The notes under the pieces were generated by a model. That model was not told the DNA's origin. It did not search any database and was given only the letters and a program-made list of their open reading frames with translations. Both the position numbers and the translations under genes were made by a program. A DNA stretch of 64,000 bases from Allorhodopirellula solitaria (GTDB lineage: Bacteria > Planctomycetota > Planctomycetia > Pirellulales > Pirellulaceae): contig NZ_SJPK01000003.1 of the NCBI RefSeq assembly GCF_007859855.1, positions 317,182-381,181 of the forward strand, written 5' to 3'. Numbering within the stretch: position 1 is the stretch's first letter; each line of letters starts with the position of its first letter. This document shows, one piece after another, positions 60,888-63,721 of this stretch.

Positions 60888-60992
60888 GAACTGGCTGATG
60901 ACCGAGCGCAACGGCGGGTCTCCCGATGAGAGGTGTCGCGGCCATTTCGCGACACGTCATCCCGTATTTCTGTACCCGCTTTCGATCCGCTC

Positions 60993-62456
60993 ATGCCTGA
61001 CGGCACACCGCGTCACACTGCCGACGATTCATCGGTACGGTTAGCCTTTGATCAAGGAACCCTGCTGCTCAGCGGAGTGGCGCGGAACTTTGTCGAGCGG
61101 GTTTGGCCCGTCGACCTCTGGACCTATGATCCTCGCGGCGACAATCGCACCTGTGGTATGGAATCATCCAATCGTGATTCCTCGGTTCGGCATTGGCGTA
61201 CCGACGCGCTGCACTACGACCGCGTCCGCGATGATCTCAAGCGTGCCCTCTCCTCCACACAAGTCGAAGATGACGTCCCCGCCTGGCACCAGATTCATTT
61301 TCCACGCTGTGACCTGCACGCTCCCCGGCCCGACCAACGCGAAGCGATTGATTCCTGGATGGAGCGTCGCCGCGGCGTGATCGTGATGCCCACGGGCACT
61401 GGCAAAACCGAGGTCGCTCTGCACGCGATGGTTCGATGTCAGTGTGCGACTCTCGTGGTCTCACCGGTACGCGACCTCATGTATCAGTGGCATTCCCGCA
61501 TCCTCGCCGCAACAGGAATCGATGCGGGTATCATCGGCGATGGGGTGCATCGGGTCAGCCCGATCAGTGTGACGACCTACGACAGTGCGGCGATGCATAT
61601 GCCGCGACTCGGTAATCAGTTTCAATTGATACTCTTCGACGAGTGTCACCACTTGCCCGGGGCAATGCGTCAAGACGCTGCCCGGATGAGTGCCGCGCCG
61701 TTTCGGATGGGATTGACCGCGACCCCTGATCGACGCGATGGGAATCACGCGTTGCTCGATGAACTGATCGGCCCCCGAGTGTACACGCAAGCTATCGCGT
61801 CGGCTCGTGGTAAGACGTTGGCTAAATATGATGTGCATCGCATCTCAGTACATCTATCGGATGAAGAACGGAGTCGGTATGAAGCTCTCGGTCGCCGCGT
61901 CCGTGACTACATTGCCGAGCGACGCAAGGATGAGCCCGACTATGATTGGCAGACATTGTGCAGCGAAAGCGGTCGCGATCCTGGGGCGCGGTCGGCGATG
62001 CAGGCGTTCCATGCCAAGCGTTCGATCGAAGATCGTGCCGCCGAGAAGCTCCGGATCGTCGAAGACCTGTTCCGTCTGCACGCCGGCGAACCAGTGATTG
62101 TATTTTGTGGTTCCAACGCAATGGCTCGCGACGTCTCGACTCGCTTCCTGATTCCCTGCTTGCTAAGTCATTGCCGCAAACGCGAACGGCAAGAAATTCT
62201 CATGGGCCTCCGCGAGGGGCGATATCCTGCGCTCGTAGCCAACCGCGTGCTCGATGAAGGTGTCGATCTGCCGGAGGTCAATGTGGCGATCGTGATCGGT
62301 GGCGGCAGCGGCACGCGGCAGGCGATCCAGCGACTCGGTCGTGTGCTACGCAAAAACGCTTTCGGACGAGCCTGTTTCTATGAAATTGTCACGGCCGGGA
62401 CGCGCGATGAACAGCGTTCGCGAGACCGGCGCCGCGATGAGGCATTCAAGAAATAA
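60993..62456 (+). CDS. XPB-type DNA helicase, archaeal-like
   Basis: The protein has 487 residues from ATG 60993; GTG 60933 would add 20. SF2 motifs are PTGTGKT (133-139), DECHH (216-220), LTATPDRRDG (241-250), LDEGVDLP and IQRLGRVLR. The sequence follows archaeal XPB closely: LAKYDVHRI after the ATP domain and GSGTRQAIQRLGR. The XPB RED motif place reads R247-R-D. It is 8 bases before the DUF790 gene, as XPB and Bax1 are in archaea. It would unwind damaged DNA for repair. Confidence 0.9.
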   Translation: MPDGTPRHTADDSSVRLAFDQGTLLLSGVARNFVERVWPVDLWTYDPRGDNRTCGMESSNRDSSVRHWRTDALHYDRVRDDLKRALSSTQVEDDVPAWHQIHFPRCDLHAPRPDQREAIDSWMERRRGVIVMPTGTGKTEVALHAMVRCQCATLVVSPVRDLMYQWHSRILAATGIDAGIIGDGVHRVSPISVTTYDSAAMHMPRLGNQFQLILFDECHHLPGAMRQDAARMSAAPFRMGLTATPDRRDGNHALLDELIGPRVYTQAIASARGKTLAKYDVHRISVHLSDEERSRYEALGRRVRDYIAERRKDEPDYDWQTLCSESGRDPGARSAMQAFHAKRSIEDRAAEKLRIVEDLFRLHAGEPVIVFCGSNAMARDVSTRFLIPCLLSHCRKRERQEILMGLREGRYPALVANRVLDEGVDLPEVNVAIVIGGGSGTRQAIQRLGRVLRKNAFGRACFYEIVTAGTRDEQRSRDRRRDEAFKK

Positions 62457-62464
62457 GGATCCTC

Positions 62465-63721
62465 ATGCTGACCAAACAAGAATCCATTCTCGAGTTCGAT
62501 TTCTCGCGTCAAGCTGTCCTGCCTGATCGACTGACCCGGAAAACACACTCCCCCTACCTCCCTGCCGTGGAACAGATCCTCGGCATTTACCGGGATCAAG
62601 TGGGGCGGACCCGGCGGGAGCTGCACACGCTTGTGCAGCGAACGATGCAAGAACTGGAGGACTGTTCGAGCGTCCGCATGTCAGCGTTTTGCAAGCTCCT
62701 CGACGACGCCAGTGAGTTTGACCAGGATCGTAGCGGCGCGGCCGCAACGCTTCGTCGACGCGTCTTCACACTCGCTGCCGCGTACCATCCCCTCGTCCAT
62801 GCGCCGGACCATCTCTTTGCGTCGAGCGAAGCGGAGGTCAAGCAGAAGATCGCCGACCAGCTCGGGCGTTCCTGGCCGGATATCGAAGCGGAACTGTTCG
62901 CCGATGTGATCGAGTTTCATCGTCTCAAAACACCGCCCGATGCTAGCATCGATGCCGCCGCGCTGTTGAGTCGATACAACGTTGCGCAAACCCAAACGGC
63001 GCTGTACTCGGCGGTGGAGTTGACCGTCCTGGCGGGCCGCGATTTCAAGACCATTCTCCGCTATGCCAAACTTGCCCGGCTGATGCATACTATCTCCCGG
63101 CAAGGCAATGGGTACACCCTCCGCTTCAACGGTCCCGCCTCAATCGTTCGCGAGACTCGCCGCTACGGGGTCGCCATGGCTCGGTTCTTGCCAGGACTCC
63201 TCGCCGCGGATGATTGGCGGATGCGTGCAATCGTGATTGGCCCGCTGCGACGCCGGTTTGCCCTCCAGCTATCCAGCCGTGATGGACTTCGCAGCGAAGT
63301 GGCCCCCAGCGATTTCGATAGCGAGCTGGAGGAGACCTTTCACCGCCGTTGGCTCGAATCGGACACCGGCGATTGGCAGATCGCACGCGAGTCCACTGTT
63401 TTGCACTCGGGTCAGAACGTTTTCATGCCCGACTTCACGTTTCGCCACCCCGATCATGGCGAGATGTTGCTCGAGATCATCGGCTTCTGGACACCGGAAT
63501 ACCTGCGCGAGAAGGCTCAGCGACTGGCCCAGTTCTCTGACCATGGGCGGATCCTGCTCGCCGTTGCAGAGCATGCTGACGAAGCGATCCCCGACCTCGG
63601 TTTGCCCCGTGCGGTCTACAAGACAAAGCTCCTGCCGAAAGCAGTCATGGGGCTCCTGGCGGCTGCCCACGAGGCATCGCCCAATCCCTCTCAGACCGAA
63701 AACTCTAACGAACCCGGATAA
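62465..63721 (+). CDS. Bax1-like (DUF790) nuclease partner of XPB
   Basis: The protein has 418 residues. AAGGAT lies about 8 bases before ATG 62465. The N-terminal half is helical (FDFSRQAVLPDRLT), and the C-terminal half has a PD-(D/E)xK-like centre: MPDFTF with D323 and LEIIGFWTPEYLREK with E337, the GFWTPEYL block being typical of DUF790. In archaea Bax1 binds XPB and cuts DNA near bubbles, replacing XPG-type cutting. Here it follows XPB with the same order and tight spacing. Confidence 0.87.
   Translation: MLTKQESILEFDFSRQAVLPDRLTRKTHSPYLPAVEQILGIYRDQVGRTRRELHTLVQRTMQELEDCSSVRMSAFCKLLDDASEFDQDRSGAAATLRRRVFTLAAAYHPLVHAPDHLFASSEAEVKQKIADQLGRSWPDIEAELFADVIEFHRLKTPPDASIDAAALLSRYNVAQTQTALYSAVELTVLAGRDFKTILRYAKLARLMHTISRQGNGYTLRFNGPASIVRETRRYGVAMARFLPGLLAADDWRMRAIVIGPLRRRFALQLSSRDGLRSEVAPSDFDSELEETFHRRWLESDTGDWQIARESTVLHSGQNVFMPDFTFRHPDHGEMLLEIIGFWTPEYLREKAQRLAQFSDHGRILLAVAEHADEAIPDLGLPRAVYKTKLLPKAVMGLLAAAHEASPNPSQTENSNEPG

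Follow-up and report, generated by a model that had tools for sequence, protein, structure and literature searches.

A two-gene locus of the planctomycete Allorhodopirellula solitaria encodes an XPB helicase of the archaeal, Bax1-linked type and, directly downstream, a Bax1 nuclease. We interpret the pair as a bacterial XPB-Bax1 helicase-nuclease complex, most likely devoted to accessory DNA opening and incision beside UvrABC and carried as a transferable two-gene cassette (probability about 0.7). The XPB-Bax1 machine itself is already known, and the most useful addition made here is the co-occurrence of the two genes across Planctomycetota, which persists when they are unlinked.

Identification of the helicase and nuclease genes

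The window, by which we mean the whole analysed stretch of 64,000 nucleotides, carries the XPB gene at 60993..62456 and the Bax1 (DUF790) gene at 62465..63721, both on the + strand and separated by 8 bases, in agreement with the adjacency claimed in the original prediction. The helicase comprises 487 aa with a DRD-like N-terminal region, the two RecA-like domains HD1 and HD2 and a thumb (ThM). The ATG at 60993 is its likely start because the closest homologue aligns from there over all 487 residues (82% over residues 1-487); an alternative GTG at 60933 would give a protein of 507 aa. Pfam searches returned ResIII, Helicase_C and ERCC3_RAD25_C, together with a weak XPB_DRD match below the cut-off (E 2.8e-4); in the relative at locus L038 the same domain passes its cut-off of 26 bits with a score of 33. 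The top sequence match in the PDB is an archaeal XPB, XPBII of Sulfurisphaera tokodaii (E 2e-89), and the helicase blocks LAKYDVHRI, LDEGVDLP and IQRLGRVLR, picked out previously, are all present in the translation.

The L038 XPB (L038:1120-4728) has an open frame of 1202 aa. About 735 aa of it precede the DRD in frame and match nothing in Pfam; the frame is either a real fusion or simply a long one.

The second protein, of 418 aa, matches Pfam DUF790 at full length (E 2.3e-83, residues 1-397, profile positions 1-386 of 387) and contains the expected GFWTPEYL block, and a sequence search of the PDB ranks archaeal Bax1 chains first (E 5e-31 to 3e-26). It fails the NCBIfam Bax1 equivalog cut-off (147 bits vs 500). 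Since a haloarchaeal Bax1 encoded beside XPB fails the same cut-off with 186 bits, the Bax1 models of NCBIfam are species-narrow equivalogs and do not mark a family boundary.

Conserved motifs, putative wedge and active site

The helicase was aligned with two sets of relatives (30 and 23 sequences). Walker A (PTGTGKT, residues 133-139, 61389..61409, + strand) consists of columns that are invariant or nearly so, motif II or Walker B (DECHH, residues 216-220, 61638..61652, +) has invariant D216, E217, H219 and H220, and motif VI (QRLGRVLR, residues 446-453, 62328..62351, +) has invariant R447 and G449, the rest being mostly nearly invariant. The ThM region aligns with archaeal XPB without large gaps. 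Within it, W319 (61947..61949, +) is a putative strand-separation wedge, aligned to F278 of S. tokodaii XPB, the strand-separating residue of that enzyme (PMC7672443); the column holds F in Archaeoglobus fulgidus and S. tokodaii, Y in Halobacterium and W in the bacterial proteins compared, and W319 is invariant among 23 planctomycete XPB proteins.

The RED-motif position reads R-R-D (residues 247-249, 61731..61739, +), aligned with RED of A. fulgidus and with R205-D206-D207 of S. tokodaii. The original prediction had read RRD correctly and supposed that the change might affect strand separation. This second part is not supported, and we rejected RED-to-RRD as a functional change, because the position is variable in the family: relatives have any of E, D, S, A, T, R, P or G in the middle, and some relatives, including one clade of the window's genus, also lack the Arg (LPSDET). 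Sulfurisphaera XPB itself has RDD at this position, so archaeal-type XPB cannot be defined by a strict RED. The second XPB version found in the genus (L054:5926-7380, L055:8099-9550 and L057:7480-8985) has lost the RED Arg (TATLPSDET and similar) and kept the Trp wedge.

The active-site acids of A. fulgidus Bax1 were assigned as E275, D305 and E318 (PMC7293015). Alignment with the A. fulgidus, S. tokodaii and P. furiosus proteins places E289/E290 of FDSELEE (63329..63334, +) at E275, D323 of MPDF (63431..63433, +) at D305 and E337 of LLEIIGFW (63473..63475, +) at E318. D323 and E337 are invariant, as scored in 36 relatives. A second planctomycete class of DUF790 proteins (L002-L009, L012, L013, L016 and L027-L030) has a rearranged first motif and an Arg replacing the conserved Lys, so that FDSxxE...EIxGFWTPEYLxxK becomes forms such as xxPEE...EIFGFWRKxALxxR.

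Structure models

Single-chain AlphaFold2 models, for which the alignments were built from the window and its genome-locus relatives only, reached a pLDDT of 86.7 for XPB and 89.8 for Bax1. In a Foldseek search against the PDB, archaeal XPB headed the matches of the XPB model; the TM to 6p4f_C, the XPB chain of a DNA-bound XPB-Bax1 complex, was 0.78/0.86. The model has helices at residues 290-347 in the thumb region. The top eight matches of the Bax1 model were all Bax1 (E 8e-24 to 2e-21, prob 1.00), the next match having E 3e-3, so the suspicion that the second protein might lack the Bax1 fold can be dropped. The whole-chain TM to Bax1 chains was about 0.5 with an rmsd of 9-12, a low value that probably comes from domain rotation.

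Judged from alignment and model together, the archaeal-type XPB ATPase is intact, with Walker A and B, motif VI and a thumb bearing an aromatic wedge, and is predicted to be active. The same applies to the Bax1 nuclease, in which an N-terminal domain, a Cas2-like centre and a PD-(D/E)xK-like core with E289/290-D323-E337 are in place and nuclease activity is predicted. The sequence searches, the AlphaFold models and Foldseek bear out the original proposal that a planctomycete carries an XPB-Bax1 pair of the archaeal type.

Co-occurrence and linkage of XPB and Bax1

The partnership was examined in 392 Planctomycetota genomes, with an XPB threshold of E<=1e-45. Bax1 was found in 54 of them, XPB in 55 and both in 53 (Fisher p 5e-62, uncorrected for the relatedness of the genomes). 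The exceptions are G123, which has Bax1 only in a genome 59% complete, G252, which has XPB only in a genome 68% complete, and G191, where XPB alone was found at a contig end, at which a downstream gene would be lost. In the window's genus, the identical six of 13 genomes hold both genes. Protein distances of XPB and Bax1 correlate with r 0.88, a value reached by none of 2000 permutations.

Among 29 survey loci outside the window, 22 have XPB immediately before Bax1 on the same strand, and there the genes usually overlap, commonly by 14 bases. In the other seven, Bax1 is unlinked and sits among unrelated genes; six of these seven genomes have XPB at another place, and the seventh is G123, with its completeness of 59%. 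The idea that another helicase had replaced XPB beside such orphan Bax1 genes was rejected: they are flanked by cytochrome-assembly, ComM-like, radical-SAM and MlaE genes, and XPB is located elsewhere in those genomes. The two genes behave as a unit, and their co-occurrence gives genetic support to an obligate partnership in bacteria. Two genomes, G149 and G178, have two Bax1 and two XPB copies each, on separate contigs and matched pair for pair.

Distribution and history of the pair

About one seventh of the 392 sampled planctomycete genomes have the pair, as do 14 of 217 Planctomycetota genomes of good quality. It is dispensable, since most Planctomycetota and seven of 13 congeners lack it. 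Two XPB versions, 82% versus about 52% identical, are found in the window's genus at different genomic places. Upstream of the window pair is a mechanosensitive-channel gene, which the pair likewise follows in genome G397; in relatives without the pair, other genes follow the channel gene. The patchy occurrence (six of 13 congeners), the unrelated insertion sites and the two divergent versions mark the pair as an accessory cassette. Its breadth in bacteria beyond Planctomycetota was drawn from plasmids, control genomes and the literature, and the same operon is present on Deinococcus and haloarchaeal plasmids. On some haloarchaeal plasmids (L063 and L065) the pair has genes for SWIM zinc finger proteins and for transposases nearby.

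Two other accounts of the origin of the genes were weighed. A helicase of the ordinary long bacterial XPB type with an unrelated nuclease as its neighbour, for which the match of the helicase core to the NCBIfam XPB equivalog speaks (E 6e-49), is hardly credible: the score of that match is 167 against a cut-off of 610, and the reading is contradicted by tree, fold and structure match. In the tree the helicase groups with the Bax1-linked XPB of archaea (A. fulgidus and S. tokodaii) and Deinococcus. It is separated, with SH-aLRT 100 and branches of 1.45 and 0.57, from the long XPB of the Actinobacteria Arthrobacter and Nonomuraea and of Haladaptatus, although the join is long, and it does not fall within ordinary bacterial helicases, the placement that would have told against the original prediction. 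The XPB model best matches S. tokodaii XPB from the Bax1-DNA complex, and the neighbour is a full-length DUF790 protein with the Bax1 fold. A recent transfer of the pair from archaea into A. solitaria might be suspected from its accessory nature and from the archaeal origin of the best solved homologues, but we regard it as very improbable and found no support for it. The nearest XPB relatives are all planctomycetes (82, 74 and 61% identity), the GC content of both genes (59-60%) equals that of the window, a single planctomycete Bax1 clade survives the AU test (p-AU 0.31, not rejected), and the family goes deep in Planctomycetota and is widespread there.

Comparison with known systems

One of the closest known systems, XPBII-Bax1 of S. 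tokodaii (PDB 5tnu, 6p4w, 6p4f and 6p4o), has in common with the window pair the gene pair, the domain plan, the helicase motifs, the acidic triad of the nuclease and the GFWT block, at identities of about 41% (XPB) and 30% (Bax1). It differs in having RDD where the window XPB has RRD and F instead of W as the wedge, and the host of the window pair additionally possesses UvrABC. A. fulgidus XPB-Bax1 (PDB 2fwr and 6p66) belongs to the same family and shares the active-site residues, with 36% (XPB) and 32% (Bax1) identity over the compared parts, whereas it has RED, an F wedge and a longer C-terminal Bax1 domain, as described for that species. The plasmid operons of Deinococcus and haloarchaea (DEAD/DEAH helicase plus DUF790) have the same gene order, often with a 14-base overlap, and about 37% (XPB) and 30% (Bax1) identity; they lie mostly on plasmids in the collection studied, whereas the window pair sits on a 735-kb contig. 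Long bacterial XPB of the Mycobacterium type (PMC3353954) shares the XPB superfamily core, but it has a larger N-terminal domain, no thumb and no known Bax1; its branch, for which Arthrobacter and Nonomuraea served as stand-ins, is separate from the window XPB in the tree.

As to novelty, such a pair is not new to bacteria. Feder and Bujnicki, in the part of their 2005 paper covered here (PMC1189080), associated COG3372/DUF790 with COG1061 (XPB-like) helicases in Archaea and Cyanobacteria, and the operon is present on Deinococcus plasmids. It is the same association as that of the window pair; its function was unknown in 2005, and planctomycetes are not named in that part of the paper. Our literature search found no paper on DUF790 in planctomycetes and no relevant pairing of XPB with planctomycetes.

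Repair and defence as possible functions

Archaeal XPB-Bax1 unwinds forked or bubbled DNA and cuts near the junction (PMC7293015, PMC7672443). By analogy with the archaeal complexes of known structure, the A. solitaria XPB would bind the N-terminal domain of Bax1 through its thumb and HD2 and would grip a forked or bubbled duplex. W319 may wedge the strands apart while XPB moves 3' to 5', and Bax1 would cut near the junction. An accessory pathway of this kind would open and incise structured or damaged DNA beside UvrABC, with the pair presumably carried as a transferable two-gene cassette and not as part of core repair, and accessory repair is what we infer as its most likely use in vivo.

The host does bear UvrABC, as was claimed beforehand, with UvrA, UvrB and UvrC all encoded in the A. 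solitaria genome. Outside the window, a 2309-aa open frame of the same genome (G000:C3:670765-676644) contains two full-length UvrA matches in tandem, and further UvrA paralogues are on contigs C1, C8 and C16. To call the pair a second, archaeal-style machine for excision repair was an overstatement, because dark repair in Halobacterium fully requires UvrABC despite its XPB homologues (PMC1590041) and the loss of XPB/XPD function in archaeal mutants causes only slight UV sensitivity (PMC7776575, PMC7690668). The repair role of XPB-Bax1 is uncertain even in archaea. No repair genes were found among the neighbouring genes examined, and the literature search returned no experiments on any bacterial XPB-Bax1 pair.

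The main rival to accessory repair is defence. As an anti-phage or anti-plasmid module, XPB would load on forks or bubbles of an invader and Bax1 would cut them; we consider this unlikely, and still somewhat less likely the proposal that in bacteria XPB-Bax1 has become a mobile nuclease attacking replication forks or bubbles of foreign DNA, which would explain why it is distributed patchily, like a cassette, in a host with a complete UvrABC. That distribution, in which insertion sites differ and a single genus holds two divergent versions, is consistent with the defence use that had been raised at the outset, as are the "potential selfish character" suggested in 2005 (PMC1189080) and the location of the pair on plasmids in Deinococcus and haloarchaea. 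The haloarchaeal location is weak evidence, because many ordinary genes are found on those replicons. Among PADLOC models the helicase comes closest to PbeA, which belongs to a phosphorothioate-linked system, but the homology is limited to the helicase core, and the nuclease matches no PADLOC model. The neighbours are ordinary housekeeping genes, a PADLOC scan of ten neighbours gave no convincing defence gene, and neither a known defence system nor a defence-island context was found for the pair by PADLOC and in the neighbourhoods checked. No phage copies of the pair were found in INPHARED and no viral copies in IMG/VR, the latter searched with two short peptide patterns of limited sensitivity. 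Six genomes, moreover, hold the two genes at separate places, which is unusual for a defence cassette.

Accessory repair by an XPB-Bax1 complex accordingly remains our preferred reading of the pair. A paper of 2012 stated that no XPB-Bax1 complex had been identified in bacteria (PMC3353954), and set against that statement, a co-occurrence that persists when the genes are unlinked supports an obligate bacterial partnership. XPB-Bax1 has been studied as an archaeal stand-in for the opening of the repair bubble in eukaryotes. A mesophilic genus that possesses UvrABC, with close species that have or lack the pair, offers a comparison in which the role of XPB-Bax1 can be asked.
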